DNA from: Candidatus Palauibacter polyketidifaciens
GTDB lineage: Bacteria > Gemmatimonadota > Gemmatimonadetes > Palauibacterales > Palauibacteraceae
DNA: 59,464 nt
Direction of reading: 5' to 3'
Assembly: GCF_947581785.1 (NCBI RefSeq)
Contig: NZ_CANPVO010000045.1
Span: 1 to 59,464, forward strand
Shown here piece after piece: positions 23,971 to 33,197 of the stretch; the first letter of the stretch is position 1, and every line of letters starts with the position of its first letter. The position numbers were made by a program, and so were the translations under genes. The notes under the pieces are model-generated. The model saw only the letters and a list, made by a program, of their open reading frames with translations, was not told the DNA's origin and did not search any database.

Positions 23971-25461
23971 TCACCAATCGACATCGATCTGCGCGCGCTG
24001 CAGCGTGCCGCTGTAATCGACGTACGCCACCTTCGTTTCCGTGTAGAACTCGTAGACTTCCCACCCCCCTTCACGGTGCCCGTTGCCCGTGTTTTTGACG
24101 CCGCCGAAGGGGAGGTGCGCCTCCGCGCCGATGGTGGGCGCGTTCACATAGGTGATGCCGTTGTCGAGTTCCTCCACGGCGCGGAAGGACGCGGTCACGT
24201 CCCGCGTGTAGATCGACGACGAGAGCCCGTATGGAACTTCGTTGTTGATATCGAAGGCTTCGTCGATCGTGTCGAAGCGGATCACGGAGAGCACCGGCCC
24301 GAAGATCTCCTCGCGCGCGGCCCGGTGTTCCCGTTCGACGCCCGCGAGAACCGTCGGCTCGAAGAACCAGCCGTCGGCGAGGCCGCTCTCCGCCGGCCGC
24401 CCGCCCCCCGTCGCGACGGTCGCCCCCTCCTCGCGGGCGATCGCGATGTAGCGCTCGCACTTCTCGCGAGCCGCCTCGTGGATGAGCGGACCCACGTCGA
24501 CGCCGGCCTCCTGCCCGTCGCCGAGGCGGAGGGAGCGCGCTTCGTAGCACAGTTTCTCCACGAACTCGTCGTGGACCTCGTTCTGCACGAGGAGCCGGCT
24601 CGTCGCGGTGCAGCGCTGCCCGGTCGTGCCGAAGGCGCCCCATAGCACGCCCTCGAGGGCGAGGTCGAGATCCGCGTCCGACATGACGATCTGTGCGTTC
24701 TTGCCGCCCATCTCGAGGGAGAGGCGCTTGTGCAGGCGCCCCGCGACCTCGCCGATCCGGCTGCCCGTCTCGGTGGATCCGGTGAAGGAGAGCCCGGGGA
24801 TGCCGGGGTGTTCGACAATGGCGCGGCCGATCGTCTCGCCGCGGCCGTGCAGCAACTGCACGCACTCGGGCGGCAGGCCGGCCTCGAGCAGGATTTCCAC
24901 GAACCGATGCGCGCTGTGGGGCACGTCTTCCGAGGGCTTGTAGATGATGCTGTTCCCGCAGAGCAGCGCGGGGAAGATCTTCCAGCTCGGGACCGCGACC
25001 GGGAAATTGAAGGGGGTGATGATCCCGAACACGCCGATCGGACGCCGGAACGACATCGCCCACTTGCTCCGCAGCTCGGAGGGCGCCGTGCGTCCGAAGA
25101 GTCGCCGGCCTTCCACCGCCGCGTAGTAGGCCGTGTCGATGGCCTCCTGGACGTCGCCGCGCGTCTCGTCGAGCACCTTTCCCATCTCGCGCGTGGCCGT
25201 GCGCGCGAGATCCTCCTTGTGCCGCGTGAGGAGGTCCCCCGCCGCTTTCAGCACGAGACCCCGCTCCGGGGCCGGCGTCCTGGACCACCGCTCGAAGCCA
25301 CGCTGCGCGGAGGCCACGGCCGCGTCCAGTTCCGCTGCGCCGGTGTCCGGAAAGAGGCCGATGAGGTCCGACGTGCGCGCCGGATTCCGGTTCTCGATGT
25401 ACTCGCCGGTGGCGGGCGCGACCCACTCGCCCGCGACGTAGTTGAGGAACTTCTCAGCCAT
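23971..25461 (-). CDS. NAD(P)-dependent aldehyde dehydrogenase
   Basis: A 496-residue ALDH-superfamily enzyme. The nucleotide fold contains ITPFNFPVAVPSWKIFPALL and FTGSTETGSRIG. The general-base Glu lies in LEMGGKNAQIV (about 250) and the nucleophile Cys in GQRCTATSR (about 284). The C-terminus has EIFGPVLSVIRF and LPFGGVKNTGNGHREGG. The closest overall flavour is the semialdehyde/lactaldehyde or aminoadipate-semialdehyde branch (ALDH7-like), but substrate cannot be fixed from sequence. It is followed closely by an unknown membrane-anchored protein gene upstream (19 bp). No pathway neighbour gives a clue. Confidence 0.92.
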   Translation of the reverse strand: MAEKFLNYVAGEWVAPATGEYIENRNPARTSDLIGLFPDTGAAELDAAVASAQRGFERWSRTPAPERGLVLKAAGDLLTRHKEDLARTATREMGKVLDETRGDVQEAIDTAYYAAVEGRRLFGRTAPSELRSKWAMSFRRPIGVFGIITPFNFPVAVPSWKIFPALLCGNSIIYKPSEDVPHSAHRFVEILLEAGLPPECVQLLHGRGETIGRAIVEHPGIPGLSFTGSTETGSRIGEVAGRLHKRLSLEMGGKNAQIVMSDADLDLALEGVLWGAFGTTGQRCTATSRLLVQNEVHDEFVEKLCYEARSLRLGDGQEAGVDVGPLIHEAAREKCERYIAIAREEGATVATGGGRPAESGLADGWFFEPTVLAGVEREHRAAREEIFGPVLSVIRFDTIDEAFDINNEVPYGLSSSIYTRDVTASFRAVEELDNGITYVNAPTIGAEAHLPFGGVKNTGNGHREGGWEVYEFYTETKVAYVDYSGTLQRAQIDVDW

Positions 25462-25480
25462 TGCCGGAGGAACTCCGCTG

Positions 25481-26128
25481 TTAGCGATTCATCAGGAGGA
25501 TGATCTCCTCGTTTTCCACCCGGACGTCGACGACGGTCGCGGGGATGTCGAAGAGCACGGTTCGTCCGTCCGCACGCAACCCCAGCTGCTGCGCGGCCAT
25601 GCCGAGCATCATCGGGGGCACCGGGAGGACGCCCGCCTGGAGATTCACGACGTGAAGCCCCCCCTCGCCGCTCTCCCCCACCCGCGGGAGGACCTCTCCG
25701 GCGACCCGGGCGGAATCCCCGAGCATCGTCGCCAGGCTCTCCGCCATGTCCGCGGCGATCGGGAGTTGCGTGAAGTCGAGCACAACGGAAAAGGCGACGG
25801 TCGAGTCGCGCAGTTCGACGGCGGGCTCGCCGACGCCCGCCGGCAGCCGGGGGGTCAACTCGTAGCGAACGTAGCTCTGGAGTTCCGTCTCGGTGAACCG
25901 CGTCTCGGCCGCCCCGCCGCCGCCCGCCAGTTCCTGCAGCGCCGCGTCCACGTCCGCGGCCGCCTCGGGGCCGAATTCGGGCGCGGACTCGACGACGACG
26001 ATCTCATCCGCGCCGACGTTCGAGAGCCACGCCTCGATGTCCTCCCGGAAGATCCAGCCGGCGAGCAGCAGAATCAGGAGGAAAATGAGAAAACCCAAGC
26101 CTGTGAAGAGCTTCCGGAAGAATCCCAT
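25481..26128 (-). CDS. Membrane-anchored hypothetical protein
   Basis: 215 residues. An N-terminal TM anchor (about 4-27, FRKLFTGLGFLIFLLILLLAG) is followed by an acidic, extracytoplasmic region with no recognised domain. Two segments, RFTETELQSYVRYELTPRLP and VAFSVVLDFTQLPIAADMAE, suggest an alpha/beta fold of the LmeA/DUF2993-like kind (lipid-binding proteins near the membrane), but this is only a resemblance. The ALDH gene lies 19 bp downstream on the same strand. Confidence 0.75.
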   Translation of the reverse strand: MGFFRKLFTGLGFLIFLLILLLAGWIFREDIEAWLSNVGADEIVVVESAPEFGPEAAADVDAALQELAGGGGAAETRFTETELQSYVRYELTPRLPAGVGEPAVELRDSTVAFSVVLDFTQLPIAADMAESLATMLGDSARVAGEVLPRVGESGEGGLHVVNLQAGVLPVPPMMLGMAAQQLGLRADGRTVLFDIPATVVDVRVENEEIILLMNR

Positions 26129-26167
26129 GTCAACCGCCTCCGACCGGAATCGGGTAAAGAGGAAAAG

Positions 26168-26782
26168 CTAGCGTCGTGCGCGCCGGACGTCATCGGTGCC
26201 GCCCGCCAGCTGGCAGGCGGCGACTTCGGTGTGCCGTGCTCCGCGGGGGAGAAGTTCGCTCCGCATCAGTGACACGCACCGGACGTCAACCGTGGCCTCG
26301 AAGCGGACACCCGCGACGGCGCCCGCCAGACCTACGGGTGGTCGGGGGCGGCGGATTCGTCCCACCGTTACGTGCGGGCGGAAGGGACGCGGGTCGGGGG
26401 CGACGCCGACGCCGACCACGGCCTCTTCCGCGGATCGCCGCAGCGCGGAGAGCGGCGGAGCCTCCTCGACACCGACCCACAGAACGCGGGCACGCCGGTG
26501 GGAGGGGAAGACGCCGGCGGCGCGCAGCCGGATCGGGAAGCGCGGCAGCTCCGCGGTCGCCGCGGAGATCGCCCGTGCAAGCGGCGCCTCGAGGCGGCGG
26601 TCGACCTCTCCGATGAAGCGCAGCGTGAGGTGCATTTGCTCCGCACGCACCGGCCGCACCCCCTCCAGCGCCCGCAGGGCCGCGGTCGCGCGCGTCAGCT
26701 CCGCGCGGATCGCGGAGGGGAGGAGGACGGCGACGAAGAGCCTCGACCGGGCGTCGGGGGCGACATATCCTGCGGCTGCCAT
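26168..26782 (-). CDS. thpR: RNA 2',3'-cyclic phosphodiesterase (2H family)
   Basis: About 204 residues. It shows the two catalytic H-x-T/S-x motifs of the 2H phosphoesterase family, HLTLRFIGEV near residue 51 and HVTVGRIRRPR near 138, and the opening RLFVAVLLPSAIRAEL typical of ThpR/LigT. It hydrolyses cyclic phosphates on RNA ends in vitro. Start is placed at the ATG at 26782, which overlaps the divergent pabA start by 2 bp; a start at 26800 or one further downstream is possible. Confidence 0.88.
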   Translation of the reverse strand: MAAAGYVAPDARSRLFVAVLLPSAIRAELTRATAALRALEGVRPVRAEQMHLTLRFIGEVDRRLEAPLARAISAATAELPRFPIRLRAAGVFPSHRRARVLWVGVEEAPPLSALRRSAEEAVVGVGVAPDPRPFRPHVTVGRIRRPRPPVGLAGAVAGVRFEATVDVRCVSLMRSELLPRGARHTEVAACQLAGGTDDVRRARR

Positions 26783-27434
26783 GATCCTCCTCATCGACAA
26801 CTACGATTCGTTCGCCTTCAACCTCGCGCGGTATCTCGAGGAACTTGGGGAGACCGTGCGGGTGCGGCGCAACGATGACGTCGATCCGGGGACCCTCGAG
26901 GACGAAGGCTTCTCGCACATCGTCATCTCGCCCGGTCCCTGCACGCCCGCCGAAGCCGGCGCTTCCGTCGAGGTGATCCGGGTGGTGGGCGCGGAGATCC
27001 CGATTCTCGGCGTTTGTCTCGGACACCAGTGTATCGCCGCGGCGACCGGCGGACGCGTCGCCCGGGCCGCGCGTCCGATGCACGGTCGCCTGTCGGCGAT
27101 CCGGCACGAAGGGAGCGGGCTGTTCGCGGGCCTCCCCTCGCCGCTCGAGGTCACCCGCTACCATTCGCTGATCGTGGATCCCGGCGAACCCGGGGACGGC
27201 CTCCGGGTCACGGCCCGAACGGAGGAGGGCGAAGTCATGGCCCTCGAACACGAGTCGCGGCCGCTGTGGGGCGTCCAGTTCCATCCGGAAGCCGTACTGA
27301 CGGCGGGCGGACGCCGCCTGCTCGGGAACTTCCTCGCGCTCGGAAGGGGGGAGGTTCCCGCTTCCGAGCCCGTGGAAGCCGGCCTCTGCGCGGAGCTCCC
27401 GGCCGACGCCCTGGTCCCGGCGGACTCGCGGTAG
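26781..27434 (+). CDS. Aminodeoxychorismate/anthranilate synthase, glutamine amidotransferase subunit
   Basis: 217 residues starting MILLIDNYDSFAFNLARYL, the diagnostic N-terminus of PabA/TrpG. The class I amidotransferase nucleophile Cys is in GVCLGHQCIA; His and Glu are in WGVQFHPEAVLT; the oxyanion region is ISPGPCTPAEAG. It supplies ammonia from glutamine to a PabB/TrpE subunit, which is not encoded here. Whether it serves folate or tryptophan synthesis (or both, as in B. subtilis) is open; folP lies about 13 kb away. It is divergent from thpR with overlapping starts. Confidence 0.93.
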   Translation: MILLIDNYDSFAFNLARYLEELGETVRVRRNDDVDPGTLEDEGFSHIVISPGPCTPAEAGASVEVIRVVGAEIPILGVCLGHQCIAAATGGRVARAARPMHGRLSAIRHEGSGLFAGLPSPLEVTRYHSLIVDPGEPGDGLRVTARTEEGEVMALEHESRPLWGVQFHPEAVLTAGGRRLLGNFLALGRGEVPASEPVEAGLCAELPADALVPADSR

Positions 27435-27777
27435 CAGGCCCGTCATCAACTCATCATCGGCTCACAACGACGAAGTGTCTTGATTGGCATGGCAGCGACG
27501 TTCGCGACGACGTTGCTGCCCCCCTACATGTACCCCGGCCCAGGTGCCACGCTATGGGTGCTGCGGACACGATCTGACGTAACCGGATTGCCCGCCGACC
27601 GACGAGGTTTGCCGCGTTTGAGCCGTTCGCGATGGACGACACCGGCATCTCCGATTGGTACGGTTGTCGTAGCAATTCCAACCGATGGCGGCGACGGCGT
27701 CCGGCGAGCTGATGCCGGAACGACGACCTTTGTACGGCTTCTTCGTTGGGTCAGGATCATGTGCCGGGGGAGAAGAC

Positions 27778-27801
27778 CGACATCGCGTGGACGGAGAGTC
27801 T
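27778..27801 (+). repeat. Short interspersed repeat, copy 1
   Basis: CGACATCGCG-TGGAC-GGAGAGTCT. It shares the arrangement CG-x-C-(A/G)-TCG-x-G, 3-5 nt, GGAGAGTCT with two more copies in the same orientation. It lies 37 bp beyond the stop of the Cys-rich gene. Confidence 0.6.
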
Positions 27802-27838
27802 TGAGCCACCGTCCGCGCGATATCGGGAAAGGGTCATG

Positions 27839-28111
27839 CTAGTTTACGCAATCTCCTATGTCGCGTCCGCAATCGCGGCAAGCTCCAGCCGCAGCCCAGC
27901 AAGCCCCAAGGTCTCCTGTCACGCATTCTAGGCCTAAAGCTGCGCACAGGGCACAGCTCTCAAGGGCCTCGATACACTCCGTTAGGCCCTCCTCTTGTGC
28001 GCATACAGGCGCAGCGCCGACCGGTAGCGTGACGCCTGCAATTTCTGGCGATTGCGCGGGAAAGAAGAACGCAGCGACAACAACCAACGCGATTGGGACA
28101 AACCGCTTCAT
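27839..28111 (-). CDS. Small secreted Cys-rich protein with duplicated C-x6-C-x2-C-x6-C module
   Basis: A 90-residue protein with a strong Shine-Dalgarno (AGGAGG, 8 nt before ATG 28111). The signal peptide has charged MKR and hydrophobic FVPIALVVVAAFFF, with a possible cleavage at VCA-QEE near residue 39. The mature part of about 50 residues has eight cysteines spaced C-x6-C-x2-C-x6-C, x7, C-x6-C-x2-C-x6-C, two identical modules in tandem (ECIEALESCALCAALGLEC and ACWAAAGACRDCGRDIGDC). It contains no basic residues except two Arg. I do not recognise the family. Eight paired Cys suggest a disulfide-rich or metal-binding helical peptide. It stands alone between flanking repeats. Confidence 0.8.
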   Translation of the reverse strand: MKRFVPIALVVVAAFFFPAQSPEIAGVTLPVGAAPVCAQEEGLTECIEALESCALCAALGLECVTGDLGACWAAAGACRDCGRDIGDCVN

Positions 28112-28139
28112 GGGGACTTCCTCCTATCGAGGGTGAACC

Positions 28140-28161
28140 CGTCGTCGAGCACGGAGAGTCT
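28140..28161 (+). repeat. Short interspersed repeat, copy 2
   Basis: CGTCGTCGAG-CAC-GGAGAGTCT, in the same orientation as copies 1 and 3. It lies 28 bp upstream of the Cys-rich gene start, so copies 1 and 2 bracket that gene. Confidence 0.6.
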
Positions 28162-28182
28162 AGTGGGTAGCACGCGACCGGG

Positions 28183-28398
28183 CTAGGCAGTTTCGTATGG
28201 AGACCGCATGAAACGTGCGGCGACATAAACAGAATCGTCGAGAACTTCCTCTGGCATGCGATGAACGCATAGGCGCATGCGGAACAAGCGGTTGCCGCCA
28301 TCATCGTCCAGTCTTGCGCACACACCGGACCGCACCACACCGACCAGAAACTCCCGCGCGCGGTCGGTGCCTTCACTGCTGTGAAGGACGCAACGCAA
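28183..28398 (-). CDS. Possible small protein or gene remnant
   Basis: A 71-codon frame with a TTG start and no clear Shine-Dalgarno. The middle reads plausibly (REFLVGVVRSGVCARLDDDGG, RMRLCVHRMPEEVLDDSVYVA) with mixed residues rather than the Arg/Pro bias of shadow frames here. No domain is recognised. It lies between repeat copies 2 and 3. It could be the end of a decayed gene, because the frame has a stop just upstream of the TTG. Confidence 0.3.
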   Translation of the reverse strand: MRCVLHSSEGTDRAREFLVGVVRSGVCARLDDDGGNRLFRMRLCVHRMPEEVLDDSVYVAARFMRSPYETA

Positions 28399-28457
28399 AC
28401 CGACTCATCGCGGGGATTGGATTAGTCGTTTCAATTGGGTCGCTCCGTTCGGAAGGT

Positions 28458-28480
28458 CGGCGTCGCGTGAGGGAGAGTCT
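28458..28480 (+). repeat. Short interspersed repeat, copy 3
   Basis: CGGCGTCGCG-TGAG-GGAGAGTCT. Nearest to copy 1 in sequence (one gap, few substitutions), 318 bp after copy 2 and 91 bp before the comM stop. Confidence 0.6.
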
Positions 28481-28570
28481 GGTGTCACAAAACCAAAGCG
28501 GCTCCCTAGAAGCGTAGACAGGATCGCCATCCCACGAGCCTCTGCTCCGAACTCCATGGCGCCCGTGACC

Positions 28571-30106
28571 TTAGCAGGGTCCGCGGAAACGAATCGCTTC
28601 GGCGACGTGGTCTTCGGATACGCGGCCCCGTCCCTCCAGGTCTGCGATGGTTCGGGCGACGCGAAGCGCGCGGTGGTAGCCGCGGGCCGTCAAGCCGAGA
28701 TGCGTCACGGCTTTCCGCAGGAGCGAACGGCCGCCGCGGTCGATCCGGCAGGCCTCCTCGAGACGGACTGGCGGGATCCGCGCGTTGATCGTTCCGTGAC
28801 GGCGGGCGGCGCGGGCCCGGGCCTTCGACACCCGGGTCCGCACGACCGCGCTCGTATCGCCGGACGCCGCTTGCGCGAGTTGCTCCCAGCGCACGGCCGG
28901 GACATCGACGAGCATGTCGATCCGGTCGAGGAGCGGTCCACTGACCCGGCGGCGGTAGCGCAGCACGGTTTCCTCGAGACAGCGGCAGCGGCCCGGCACG
29001 CCCAGGAAGCCGCACGGACAGGGGTTCATCGCCGCCACGAGGGTGAACTCGGCGGGAAAGCTGGCCGATCCGGCCGCGCGGACGATCCGCACCTGTCCTT
29101 CCTCGATCGGCTGGCGCAGCGCCTCCAGCGTGCGGCGCCCGAACTCCGGGAGTTCGTCGAGGAAGAGCACGCCGTGATGGGCAAGCGATGCCTCGCCCGG
29201 CCGCGGACGGGTCCCGCCCCCGATCAGCCCGGCCTCGCTGATGGAATGGTGCGGCGCCCGGAAGGGTCGGGCGCGCTTGAGTCCGGAACCGTCGGCCAGG
29301 AGGCCGGCGATGCTGTGGATCGCCGTCACGTCCACCGCCTCCCTTACGTCGAGAGTGGGGAGGAGACCGGGGAGGCAGCGGGCGAGGCTCGTCTTGCCCG
29401 AACCCGGGGAGCCCGAAAAAAGGAGGTTGTGCCCGCCGGCGGCCGCGATCTCCAGCGCCCGCTTGGCGACCGGCTGCCCCTTCACGGCCGACAAGTCGAA
29501 CCCGGGATCGTCAGGCGCGGGGTCACCCGAGGTCCGAGCGGCGGGGGATAGCAGCACCGCGGGTTCGCGCAACCGGGCCTTGCCATTCAGCGCGGCGAGG
29601 AGGTAGGTCAGCGACTCCGAGCCGCCCACGGCGATTCCTTCCGCCGCCGACGCCTCCCGCAGGTTCGCGACCGGCAGGAGGAGGCGCGCGACCTGCGGGT
29701 TCGCGGCCGCGAAAAGGGCGATCGGGAGGGCGCCCCGGATCGGGCGCAGCGAACCGTCGAGCCCGAGTTCGCCCACGGCCAGGGTCCCGTCGAGGGCGTC
29801 CTGAGGGAGGTCCCCCTTCGCGCACAGGATCCCGAGCATGATCGGCAGATCCAGCGCGGCCCCGGTCTTGGGAAGGTCCGCCGGCGCCAGGTTCACCGTG
29901 ATGCGCAACCCGGGAACGTGAAGGCCCAATTGGGCCGCGGCGGCCCGGATTCGCTCGCGGCCCTCGCGCACGGCGCTCTGCGCGAGGCCGACGATCTGCA
30001 TCAGCGGCGTCCCGTGGATCAGCGACACCTCGACGCTCACCGGCCGCACGTCGAGTCCCATCACCGCCGCCGACATCACCGAGGCCGACCCCACCCACTT
30101 TGCCAT
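28571..30106 (-). CDS. comM: YifB/ComM-family Mg-chelatase-like AAA+ ATPase
   Basis: About 511 residues. The N-terminal ChlI-like domain contains VEVSLIHGTPLMQIVGLAQ and ITVNLAPADLPKTGAALDLPI. Walker A is SGSPGSGKTSLARCLPGLLP, Walker B VLFLDELPEF, and NPCPCGFLGVPGRCRC supplies the Cys cluster typical of the family. ComM is a hexameric helicase that promotes branch migration in natural transformation; many homologues are simply called YifB. The start is placed at ATG 30106 (MAKWVGSASVMS) behind a GGGGAGG-type SD. The C-terminus RGYHRALRVARTIADLEG is complete. Confidence 0.95.
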   Translation of the reverse strand: MAKWVGSASVMSAAVMGLDVRPVSVEVSLIHGTPLMQIVGLAQSAVREGRERIRAAAAQLGLHVPGLRITVNLAPADLPKTGAALDLPIMLGILCAKGDLPQDALDGTLAVGELGLDGSLRPIRGALPIALFAAANPQVARLLLPVANLREASAAEGIAVGGSESLTYLLAALNGKARLREPAVLLSPAARTSGDPAPDDPGFDLSAVKGQPVAKRALEIAAAGGHNLLFSGSPGSGKTSLARCLPGLLPTLDVREAVDVTAIHSIAGLLADGSGLKRARPFRAPHHSISEAGLIGGGTRPRPGEASLAHHGVLFLDELPEFGRRTLEALRQPIEEGQVRIVRAAGSASFPAEFTLVAAMNPCPCGFLGVPGRCRCLEETVLRYRRRVSGPLLDRIDMLVDVPAVRWEQLAQAASGDTSAVVRTRVSKARARAARRHGTINARIPPVRLEEACRIDRGGRSLLRKAVTHLGLTARGYHRALRVARTIADLEGRGRVSEDHVAEAIRFRGPC

Positions 30107-30218
30107 TCTTCTTCGCTCCCCTCCCCGCAGCCTTGTAACTTCACCGTGAGTCATTGATCGGCGCCGGTCTCAACCGGTTCTCAAACAGGCCGGGAACGAG
30201 CGCAGGAACGAGGGCAGT

Positions 30219-30962
30219 TTGGCGAAGAGCGTGAGATCGTCGTGCGGCGGCGCCATCAGTCCGCGGGAAGACCGGGCGTCACCGCCGAGAGCGGTGAGGC
30301 TGCCGGGCGTGCTCCTGCTGAGTGCGCTGCTCGCGGGACTGCCGGCTCCCCCGCCGCTGAGCGCGCAGGAACTGGACGCGGGCCACCTGTATCTTCGCGA
30401 AGCCGGACGCCGGGTGGGGACGGAGCGCTTCCGGGTCTGGCGGACCGGGTCCACGGTGAACGCCGCCGCGAGCGTCGAGATGGTGCAGCGGACCGCATGG
30501 CTGGTGCGGCTCCAGATGGACCCGGACCTGCTCCCGGTGAAATACGAGATTCGCGAAGGGGTATCGGCTATCGTGAGCGGGGAGCGCTTCCCCGACCGGG
30601 TCCGCTTCCACTTCGCGACGCCGGAGGGCGAGCGCTGGAAGCAGTACCCGGTCCAGGATGCGGCCGCGATCCTCGAGCCGGGGGTCGCTCATCACTATCT
30701 CGTGCTCGTGCGTGCGCTCAGAGAAGCGCCGGACGGGCGGTTGACGGCGATCCTGCCCCTCGACGGGCGGACCGTGACCGTTCGCCTCGCCGCGCGGACG
30801 GGGGAGAGCGTCTCGCTCGGCGAGGAGTCGGTGGACGCGACCCGGTACGACGTGGACATGGAAGGCGCCCTGCACCGGGTGTGGCTCGACGCGGAAGACC
30901 GGCTCCTCCGCGTCCTGGACTCCGAGGGACGCGAGGCTCTGCGCGCCCCAGCCGGGGGCTGA
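30219..30962 (+). CDS. Secreted hypothetical protein (DUF6134-like)
   Basis: 247 residues. Around residues 25-50 a hydrophobic stretch (LPGVLLLSALLAGLPAPPPLSA) ends in AQELD, a Sec signal peptide. The true start may be a codon downstream of ATG 30219, since the first 25 residues are polar. The mature part is a beta-rich protein (GHLYLREAGRRVGTERFRVW, then repeated short strands such as VDATRYDVDMEGALHRVWLD). This recalls periplasmic proteins of the DUF6134/DUF3108 type that bind hydrophobic ligands, but the match is weak. The next gene in the same direction is the YIP1 protein 56 bp away. Confidence 0.75.
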   Translation: MAKSVRSSCGGAISPREDRASPPRAVRLPGVLLLSALLAGLPAPPPLSAQELDAGHLYLREAGRRVGTERFRVWRTGSTVNAAASVEMVQRTAWLVRLQMDPDLLPVKYEIREGVSAIVSGERFPDRVRFHFATPEGERWKQYPVQDAAAILEPGVAHHYLVLVRALREAPDGRLTAILPLDGRTVTVRLAARTGESVSLGEESVDATRYDVDMEGALHRVWLDAEDRLLRVLDSEGREALRAPAGG

Positions 30963-30979
30963 GACAGACCACCGAGGGG

Positions 30980-31007
30980 TCAGAACAGAACGGTCAGAAC
31001 AGAACGG
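30980..31007 (+). repeat. 14-bp tandem repeat before the YIP1 gene
   Basis: Two exact copies of TCAGAACAGAACGG (30980-30993 and 30994-31007) immediately precede the GGAGGAG Shine-Dalgarno of the YIP1 gene. Confidence 0.8.
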
Positions 31008-31018
31008 AGGAGAAGAAG

Positions 31019-31762
31019 ATGGAACACCTTCCGGAATCGTCCGAGGCATCCGTGGAGGAGCACGCGATCCCCTCCCTGCCCGTGCGCATCGTGCAGGTCT
31101 TCGTCTCGCCGGCGGCGCTGTTCGATGCACTCCGCCAGCGGCCGGCCTGGATGGGCGCCACCCTGGCGCTGATCGGACTGAGCATCGCGCTTCAGTTCCT
31201 CACGCCCGTCATCGTCCCCGAAGAGGTATTGCGGAGGGCGGCGGAGGCCCGAATCGCGGACTTCATACCGGCGGGAGCCGACCCCGAGGTTCTGGAACAG
31301 CAGGTCGACGCGGCCGTAACCCCGGGAGTAGGCGTCGTCGTGGGCACGATCATCATGACGCCCCTCGTACTCTCGCTCATCGCGGGACTCCTCCTCATCG
31401 CGTTCAACGTCATGCTGGGGGGCGAAGCCAGCTTCAAGCAGCTGCTGAGCGCCGCCGCGCACGCGATGTACATCGGGACGGCGGGTGGGCTCGTTTCCAT
31501 CGGCCTGATGGCGGTCGGGGCCGAGATCGTGACGCTCTCGCCCGGTCTCTTCCTGCCCGAGATGGAGGGGTTCATCGGCAGGTTCCTAAACGGAATCAAC
31601 GTCTTCTCTGTTTGGACCTGCGGGGTGCTGGGGGTGGCGGTGAGCCGCTTCTATCCGGGCCGGTCCGTGGCGGCGGGCACGACGTATCTGCTCGTACTCT
31701 ACCTGATCTTCGTGGCGGCGGTCGCGGTGTTCGCGGGCCTGCTAGCCGGCCTGGCCGGCTAG
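31019..31762 (+). CDS. YIP1-family membrane protein
   Basis: 247 residues starting MEHLPESSEASVEEHA behind a GGAGGAG SD. A soluble N-terminus is followed by five hydrophobic segments. The VSPAALFDALRQRPAWMGATLAL opening is typical of bacterial Yip1/DUF1282 membrane proteins (in this family: short lead, F-x-x-L-x-x-x-P then TM1). Function is unknown. It lies just upstream of the MacAB-like export operon and may be cotranscribed, although a hairpin and an operator-like array separate them. Confidence 0.86.
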   Translation: MEHLPESSEASVEEHAIPSLPVRIVQVFVSPAALFDALRQRPAWMGATLALIGLSIALQFLTPVIVPEEVLRRAAEARIADFIPAGADPEVLEQQVDAAVTPGVGVVVGTIIMTPLVLSLIAGLLLIAFNVMLGGEASFKQLLSAAAHAMYIGTAGGLVSIGLMAVGAEIVTLSPGLFLPEMEGFIGRFLNGINVFSVWTCGVLGVAVSRFYPGRSVAAGTTYLLVLYLIFVAAVAVFAGLLAGLAG

Positions 31763-31763
31763 C
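31741..31763 (+). terminator. Perfect hairpin over the YIP1 stop codon
   Basis: GCTAGCCGGC-CTG-GCCGGCTAGC is a perfect 10-bp inverted repeat with a 3-nt loop covering the last codons and the TAG stop. No T-tract follows, so it may be a 3'-end stabiliser or a weak/Rho-assisted terminator. Confidence 0.5.
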
Positions 31764-31789
31764 AGGGGTGAAACCGCGCAGGTCGCCTC

Positions 31790-31817
31790 GACGTACCCGT
31801 GACGTATCGATGACGTA
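31790..31817 (+). promoter_or_regulatory. Three GACGTA direct repeats at 11-bp spacing upstream of the export operon
   Basis: GACGTA starts at 31790, 31801 and 31812, exactly one helical turn apart; the first two 11-bp units also share the flank (GACGTA-Y-C-S-R-T). It lies about 70 bp before the adaptor start codon. Such phased direct repeats are typical of operators for cooperatively binding regulators; the regulator is unknown. Confidence 0.45.
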
Positions 31818-31886
31818 CAGCCGGGGGCGGGCCATGCAGTCGCCCGGACCGCCCGCCGAATCTCGAAATAAAGGTCGTTGTACAGG

Positions 31887-33197
31887 ATGAAGAAAGCGAT
31901 CATCGCGGTCGTCGTGGTTGGGCTTCTCGCGACCATGGGATTCCTCGCCATGCAGCGGGAAGGGCGTGGCGCCGTCGAAGTCCGCGTAGAGGCCGTAGGG
32001 CTGCGGGATCTCATCGACGACGTCTCCGCGACAGGCCATATAGAACCCAAGACGCACGTGGACATCACGACCGACGTCGCCGGGCGGATCATCGAACTCC
32101 CGGTGGAGGAAGGGCAGGACGTGGAGGAGGGAGACCTCCTGCTTCAGATCGACCCGGCCCTCTTCCGCGCGGCGGTCAACCGGGCGGAGGCCGGGGTGGC
32201 GCAGGCGCAGGCCACCCTCGCCCAGCAGCGGGCGGCATACGAGCAGGCGCAGCGGGACGCGGATCGTCTCACGGCGTTGCAGGCGCGAGGGACCGACTTC
32301 GTGACCGAGGCGGAGGTTGAGCAGGCGGTGACAAACGCCGAGGTCCAGCACCGGCTCTTCGAGGCTTCGGAACATTCCGTGCAGCAGGCGGAGGCAAACC
32401 TCGACCAGGAGCGTGACCGGCTAGGGAAGACGACGATCCGGGCGCCCATGTCGGGCCGGATCACGCGGCTCAACGTCGAGCGCGGCGAGACCGCAATCGT
32501 CGGGACGATGAACAATCCGGGAAGCCTGCTCCTCACCGTCGCGGACCTGTCCGTCATGGAGGCCGTGATCGAGGTGGACGAAACGGACGTGCCCGACATT
32601 ACCATCGGCGACTCCGCGTATGTCGAGATCGACGCCTTCCCCAACCAGCGTTTCGTGGGGACCGTCACCGAGATCGGCAACAGCTCGATCGTCCCCCTTA
32701 ATCCCGCCACGTCCGGAGGTTCGGCCCAGGCGATCGACTTCGAGGTGCGCATCGAGCTTCGTGAGCCGCCCGAAGGGATCCGGCCGGACCTGTCCGCCAC
32801 AGCGGACGTGATCACGGCCACCCGCGACCAAGTGCCCAGCATCCCCATCACGGCGCTGACGCTGATGGATGCGGACGAATACGAGGAGATCCCGAACGAG
32901 AATCTGCCGAGCGCTCCGGGCTCCGACGCGGCGCGGGATATCGAGGGCGTCTTCGTCGTGGAGGGGAACATCGTCCGCTTCCGGCCCGTGGAGATCGGCA
33001 TCGCCGGAGAGAACTACTTCGAGGTCGTCTCGGGGATCGAACTCGGCACGACCGTGGTCTCCGGCTCGTTCCAGGCGATCCGCGAACTCGGCGACGGGAG
33101 CCGGATCCAGATCGACGGGCCGGGGCCCGGGGCCGCCGTCAACGGCGACGGCAGCGAAGGAAGCGACGCCGCGATCAACGGGGAGGACGGACGATGA
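31887..33197 (+). CDS. MacA-like periplasmic adaptor (HlyD/RND-type membrane fusion protein)
   Basis: About 436 residues. The N-terminal TM anchor ([21 protein letters not shown]) is followed by a barrel-sandwich domain ([22 protein letters not shown], then [19 protein letters not shown] half after the hairpin, here [18 protein letters not shown]). A long coiled-coil hairpin (about 75-170, Ala/Gln-rich) and a beta-barrel ([21 protein letters not shown]) come next. The C-terminus is Gly/Asp-rich. It pairs with the ATPase encoded with a 4-bp overlap. MacA-type adaptors connect MacB to an outer-membrane channel; no TolC gene is in the window. Confidence 0.93.

Follow-up and report, generated by a model that had tools for sequence, protein, structure and literature searches.

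Results

The window analysed here is the whole stretch of 59,464 nucleotides. On its minus strand, at positions 27839-28111, lies a coding sequence for a protein of 90 residues, P0001 (in our labels P stands for proteins, G for genomes, of which G000 is the window's own, L for loci and C for contigs). An earlier sequence-only reading had proposed this frame with its strand and coordinates, together with a strong Shine-Dalgarno sequence, a signal peptide and eight regularly spaced cysteines, and we confirmed these features. The Shine-Dalgarno sequence, AGGAGGA, is found at 28119-28125 (minus strand), 7 nt ahead of the ATG. Residues 1-38 (27998-28111, minus strand), which leader profiles mark as conserved, form a signal-like leader ending in PVCA before Gln39, a probable signal peptidase I site at which cleavage would leave Gln39 as the first mature residue. 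The mature region, residues 39-90 (27842-27997, minus strand), has a net charge of −8. Its cysteines are at positions 46, 53, 56, 63, 71, 78, 81 and 88, giving gaps of 6-2-6-7-6-2-6, and a further cysteine at position 37 belongs to the leader. No model in Pfam, NCBIfam, PHROG or PADLOC matched P0001 above its cut-off, in agreement with the earlier view that it fits no known family; the best Pfam match was DUF326 (PF03860; E 0.46, 11 bits against a cut-off of 20.4). When P0001 was used as a query against 5.8 billion proteins, the sole return was P0001 itself.

The gene is carried by an accessory insert of about 1.15 kb (27414-28570, unstranded), the right edge of which falls between 28538 and 28583 depending on the genome compared, and which has a GC content of 0.608 against 0.693 for the window. 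The insert is flanked by a class-I glutamine amidotransferase (GATase) gene and a Mg-chelatase-type gene, which we take to be trpG-like and yifB-like, respectively. It is absent at the same junction in 11 other genomes of the genus (G001, G002, G004, G006, G007, G008, G009, G010, G014, G015 and G100, the last from the same species), where the flanks are 0-100 bp apart. The flanks are on different contigs in G011, roughly 1.3 kb without a family match occupies the junction in G003, only partial alignments were obtained for G005 and G012, and one flank was matched in G013. A Pfam scan of seven ORFs in the insert gave no match, and no modifying enzyme was found in the seven ORFs neighbouring P0001 (23974-33194). 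The codon-position GC of P0001 (0.68/0.54/0.56) is atypical when compared with that of the neighbouring yifB-like gene (0.75/0.54/0.86). Upstream of P0001, at 28251-28400 (minus strand), there is a possible decayed second copy of the peptide, in which a leader-like ...GPVCAQD is followed by C-x2-C-x6-C; this match is weak (i-Evalue 0.0017) and was obtained with a leader profile that included P0001.

Further features were observed around the insert. The sequence TAGCAGG is found near both ends (27432-27438 and 28572-28578) and also, as a single copy, at the empty G006 junction; it could be a target-site repeat or a microhomology. The yifB-like gene (28571-30154) is 89% identical to its homologue in the same-species genome G100, compared with 99% for the trpG-like gene, suggesting a recombination breakpoint near the insert. 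An HlyD-type gene starts at 31878, more than 3.7 kb and less than 4 kb from P0001, and is followed by ABC-transporter/permease-like ORFs up to 38131.

P0001 had been described as an orphan, which proved not to be the case: its leader recurs in a family with members in two genomes outside the genus and in 7 of the 17 within it. A search of 100 related genomes with P0001 alone returned many weak matches, the best of which came from the same-genus genome G009 (E 9.8e-4), with another from the same genus, G011, fifth among the remaining matches (E 0.041). The ORFs in these two genomes share the leader with P0001, not the cysteine layout. Profile searches found the family within the genus in G000, G002, G007, G008, G009, G011 and G015, and outside it in 2 of 394 genomes of the class that were searched (G090 and G292); database proteins were added to these genome-derived members. 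The window's own genome has a second member at C25:46121-46399, and the profile searches returned none from G100. One candidate, G275 (E 0.0044), was rejected on inspection as not family-like, and among the new loci at E 0.0025-0.1, L248, L258 and L264 contained nothing family-like under a filter of at least four cysteines and 40-300 aa.

Three classes have the leader in common: class I, class II, which includes P0001, and class III. Because P0001 had been among the earlier seeds, we built three leader profiles that excluded it: one used seven members of classes I and III, one used six of class II, and one pooled both sets. With all three, P0001 came first of the 664 frames in the window (E 2.6e-5, 5.2e-7 and 2.7e-8), in a test that is not wholly independent, since the seeds came from searches begun with P0001. 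The consensus of the family leader is about P-x(6-7)-AG[VI]-x(1-4)-G-x4-CA/Q, where the slash marks the likely cleavage point; exceptions occur, and P0001 matches it (E 2.7e-8 with the pooled profile). At the level of sequence, the family and the place of P0001 in it through the shared leader are well supported. Among the matches listed in the open-access literature on secreted or cysteine-rich peptides of Gemmatimonadota, helical-hairpin bacteriocins, 6-bladed propellers, NVEALA and sponge-symbiont hypervariable leaders, we found no description of a leader-sharing cysteine peptide family, and a passage on ranthipeptides (PMC11651109) contains nothing on one.

Class I consists of P0002-P0011, P0013 and the copies on G000 C25 and G011 C62, and has six cysteines, with gaps of 14-7-3-10-1 in P0002; the G292 member is class-I-like with ten cysteines. 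An AlphaFold2 model of class I contains a helix at 45-64 and strands at 71-78 and 84-92, with block means of 87-95 over residues 51-93, and had no confident match in the PDB. In CSalphabeta defensins a CxxxC on a helix is joined to a CxC strand; in the class I relatives CxxxC and CxC are both on predicted strands, the helix of the model being that at 45-64. Class III is represented by G002 C51 and G090, with gaps of 7-6-9-6-7, and by G007, in which one cysteine is lost. In class II, where P0001 is an eight-cysteine member, the cores are 6-2-7-2-6 in L209 (G008 C188), 6-2-11-2-6 in L238 (G011 C33), 7-2-15-2-6 in P0015 (G008 C207) and 11-2-13-2-6 in L234 (G015 C56), and the class also takes in the database protein P0016 and two forms with a four-cysteine core, G011 C46 and G002 C47. 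A C-x6-C-x2-C ... C-x2-C-x6-C core is found in P0001 (46-53-56 and 78-81-88), L209 and L238, and P0015 is one residue off.

The leader and the mature part were compared in a set of 25 sequences, in which a sequence found identically in the database and in a genome counted as one and from which truncated P0012, P0014 and P0017, two split G015 copies and a broken G011 C33 copy were left out. Across 55 pairs among 11 representatives picked from this set, identity at non-cysteine positions was 0.38 in the last 24 residues of the leader (0.20 when shuffled) and 0.19 in the mature part (0.17 when shuffled), the leader being the more alike in 54 pairs. The number of mature cysteines was even in 24 of the 25 sequences (6, 8, 10 or 12), the exception being G007 with 5, and the mature parts were acidic in all 25 (−3 to −20).

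Other observations concern single loci. In G015, the two class I peptide genes (L157 and L158) are each split over two frames, and one of the adjoining propeller genes described below is also split. Beside an arginase-family gene, which at L238 was identified from the start of its sequence, L236 and L238 carry differing class II peptides in two genomes, and G011 also has a broken peptide copy on the opposite strand; this may reflect cassette turnover. At 4403-7516 of L238, close to the class II gene, lies a coding sequence for a protein of leucine-rich-repeat and Ig-like type that also matches a metallopeptidase.

The cysteine spacing of P0001 had been taken as two identical modules, an exact duplication. 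The gaps of the two halves are indeed equal, but the sequence is not duplicated (1 of 14 non-cysteine positions matches), and the spacing is better read as a palindrome because those of the relatives, 6-2-7-2-6, 6-2-11-2-6 and 7-6-9-6-7, are palindromic and not tandem copies. When the eight cysteines of the 52-residue mature part were randomly placed, the first three gaps equalled the last three with P = 4.0e-4 and a perfect palindrome was obtained with P = 3.8e-4, these values being two readings of one property. The probability of symmetry by chance was about 3e-3 in class III; L238 and L209 each had a value of about 6e-3, P0015 had 0.016, and L234 was not palindromic (P 0.19). The last four were scored on hand-trimmed cysteine cores that leave out two to six further linker or tail cysteines, and within class II the values are not mutually independent. 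The class I peptides were without palindromic symmetry (P 0.66 and 0.80).

Positions i, i+7, i+10 and i+17 are the a and d positions of heptads, and antiparallel coiled coils pack in a-d′ layers. In an ideal antiparallel coiled-coil model of P0001, which used ideal helices and Cβ atoms only, the nested pairing 46-88, 53-81, 56-78 and 63-71 was the best of 24, with an rms of 0.00 Å from a Cβ-Cβ distance of 3.9 Å at interhelix distances of 7.5-8.5 Å and of 0.56 Å at 10 Å, and these fits had left-handed pitches between −118 and −189 Å. The second-best pairing (46-88, 53-78, 56-81 and 63-71) had an rms of 0.95 Å. A fit as good as that of P0001 was seen in 0 of 482 random placements of 4+4 cysteines and in 9 of 482 random palindromic ones, and a separate geometry run gave 0 of 250 random placements. 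The 6-2-n-2-6 core fitted the ideal-helix model in the same way as P0001; the 7-6-9-6-7 type required a right-handed twist (pitch about +135 Å) to fit, unlike ordinary coiled coils.

This geometry defines a proposed helix 1 with Cys46, 53, 56 and 63 (27923-27976, minus strand) and a proposed helix 2 with Cys71, 78, 81 and 88 (27848-27901, minus strand), whose partners would be, in nested order, 63, 56, 53 and 46. AlphaFold2 modelling of mature P0001 gave low-confidence helix (mean pLDDT 58.6, pTM 0.39) only at 41-51 and 54-58 for the former and only at 68-80, followed by coil, for the latter, leaving residues 59-63 and 81-88 of the proposed hairpin uncovered; its input was five shallow sequences whose MAFFT alignment is poor in the C-terminal half. 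A Foldseek search of this model against the PDB returned no match. A VKOR homologue is encoded in the window's genome, above its cut-off (E 5.2e-24), and this together with the even cysteine counts favours disulfides over metal or free thiols. A disulfide-stabilised helical hairpin, which had been among the suggestions of the sequence-only reading, is the best reading of the predicted structure, with ideal-helix geometry as its basis and weak help from AlphaFold2. As a model, the two-helix hairpin is fairly supported; within its helices and pairing, the inner two rungs of the predicted disulfide ladder are the least certain.

At 9 of the 10 loci of classes I and III, the gene directly downstream of the peptide gene encodes a 6-bladed beta-propeller. 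DUF5128 scored above cut-off beside the genes at L153, L154, L155 and L157, and the propellers at L158 (split), L159, L160, L240 and L241 were assigned by homology; in the exception, G009, the peptide gene is followed by one with a carboxypeptidase-regulatory-like domain. Both loci outside the genus are among those with a propeller, that of L240 being 76% identical to the one at L159 and that of L241 46% identical to the one at L153. The units of peptide and propeller gene extend over 6359-8000 in L153, 7857-9445 in L154 and 679-2277 in L155, and are also present at L157-L160, L240 and L241. Close matches to the L153 propeller (E at most 1e-30) are encoded in 4 of 17 genomes of the genus, and the only close one in G000 belongs with the other peptide gene, on C25. 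No propeller gene was found downstream in the seven class II loci, P0001 included, some of whose contigs end a few kb away. The six-cysteine peptide and the propeller occur as a two-gene unit in two families of the class and perhaps move as a unit. The propeller product may hold or receive the sister-class peptide.

One account of the whole family would make it a ligand or plug of the 6-bladed propeller, with the window copy a cassette parted from its partner. The DUF5128-type or homologous propellers beside nearly all class I/III genes, including both loci outside the genus, argue for this, but we regard it as unlikely for P0001, as none of the class II loci, the window's among them, has a propeller within reach of its contig and the close propeller of G000 goes with the C25 peptide. 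We find it distinctly unlikely that P0001 is an ORF on acquired DNA that is decaying or never had a function, its cysteine pattern being a relic. Its atypical codon-position GC, the possible decayed copy upstream, the two frame-split class I copies of G015 and the lack of any member in another genome of the species are all consistent with such an origin, but the P0001 frame is intact with a strong Shine-Dalgarno sequence, the leader matches profiles built without it, and the cysteine set is fully palindromic and even. More doubtful still is a secreted or periplasmic metal-binding peptide, an option of the sequence-only reading in which Zn or Cu(I) would be bound by the CxxC pairs 53/56 and 78/81 and the peptide stabilised by the outer cysteines: CxxC...CxxC is kept in P0001, L209, L238, P0015 and L234 and DUF326 gives a weak hint, but that match stays below its cut-off, the even cysteine counts and the VKOR gene point elsewhere, the 7-6-9-6-7 type and the two four-cysteine-core relatives lack core CxxC pairs, and elsewhere the length separating one CxxC pair from the other ranges between 7 and 21 residues.

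Discussion

With modest confidence, we favour P0001 as an exported peptide of a leader-sharing hypervariable family that forms a two-helix hairpin with four nested disulfides and is likely to be an extracellular binding or antagonistic peptide. P0001 would be exported through Sec and cleaved before Gln39, oxidized in the periplasm, a VKOR homologue being present in the genome, and folded as two helices stapled by the four nested pairs. It would then act outside the cell as a secreted effector, used either in competition or as a ligand recognised by a host or neighbour; this role is the least certain part of the proposal. A secreted effector, unlike a metal carrier with a housekeeping role, would be expected to combine a constant leader with diversified cargo and to be present in some genomes and absent from others. 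Its acidic charge makes P0001 less likely to be a cationic, membrane-lytic peptide and more likely to have a specific protein target.

Several known systems resemble P0001 in part. Glycocins are helix-loop-helix peptides with C-x6-C pairs. Like P0001, whose disulfides are predicted, sublancin 168, glycocin F and thermoglycocin are small bacterial peptides with nested disulfides, and the geometry of P0001, with its low-confidence model, is compatible with their hairpin. P0001 differs from them in its Sec-type leader, in place of a double-glycine or GK leader, in its eight cysteines and in its strongly acidic charge; its match to sublancin (2mij) was at chance level (E 4.5), and neither a glycosyltransferase nor a peptidase-containing transporter was found in the seven insert ORFs and seven neighbouring ORFs (23974-33194). 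Thermoglycocin has two nested disulfides and a third that forms a C-terminal loop (PMC12457901).

The sister classes of P0001 recall another system in adjoining DUF5128-type propellers. NVEALA peptides (PF14055) of Bacteroidota are small and exported, have a conserved motif at the leader end and are linked with propellers. P0001 itself is without a propeller, its Pfam scan gave no PF14055 match, and the best match to this model in the genome lies elsewhere, at 13.8 bits against a cut-off of 27. DUF326 proteins are Cys-rich and helical and are linked to copper storage proteins; P0001 differs from them in cysteine spacing, in addition to its score below cut-off. Plant alpha-hairpinins have two antiparallel helices with nested disulfides between CxxxC pairs. 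They are eukaryotic, P0001 has a 6-2-6 spacing and not CxxxC, and the likeness lies in the predicted fold.

The stapled-hairpin reading of P0001 has consequences beyond this gene. The palindrome rule turns an odd cysteine spacing into a testable disulfide map, and could flag fast-evolving secreted hairpins that sequence searches miss. If the predicted disulfide ladder is true, it would be a compact natural scaffold. More speculatively, and as an analogy that we put forward tentatively, one export leader might deliver fast-diversifying acidic disulfide-ladder peptides on several scaffolds, in the manner of cone snails, to protein targets of a host or of other microbes, in a Gemmatimonadota genus that is probably sponge-associated. 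The scaffolds would then be helical hairpins with eight, six or four cysteines and an alpha-beta-beta fold, and the eight-cysteine palindrome would be a new stapled-hairpin scaffold. If true, a constant leader with variable stapled cargo, carried on accessory cassettes and partly paired with propellers, would amount to a secreted-peptide system that has gone unrecognised, in a lineage that is apparently still uncultured.
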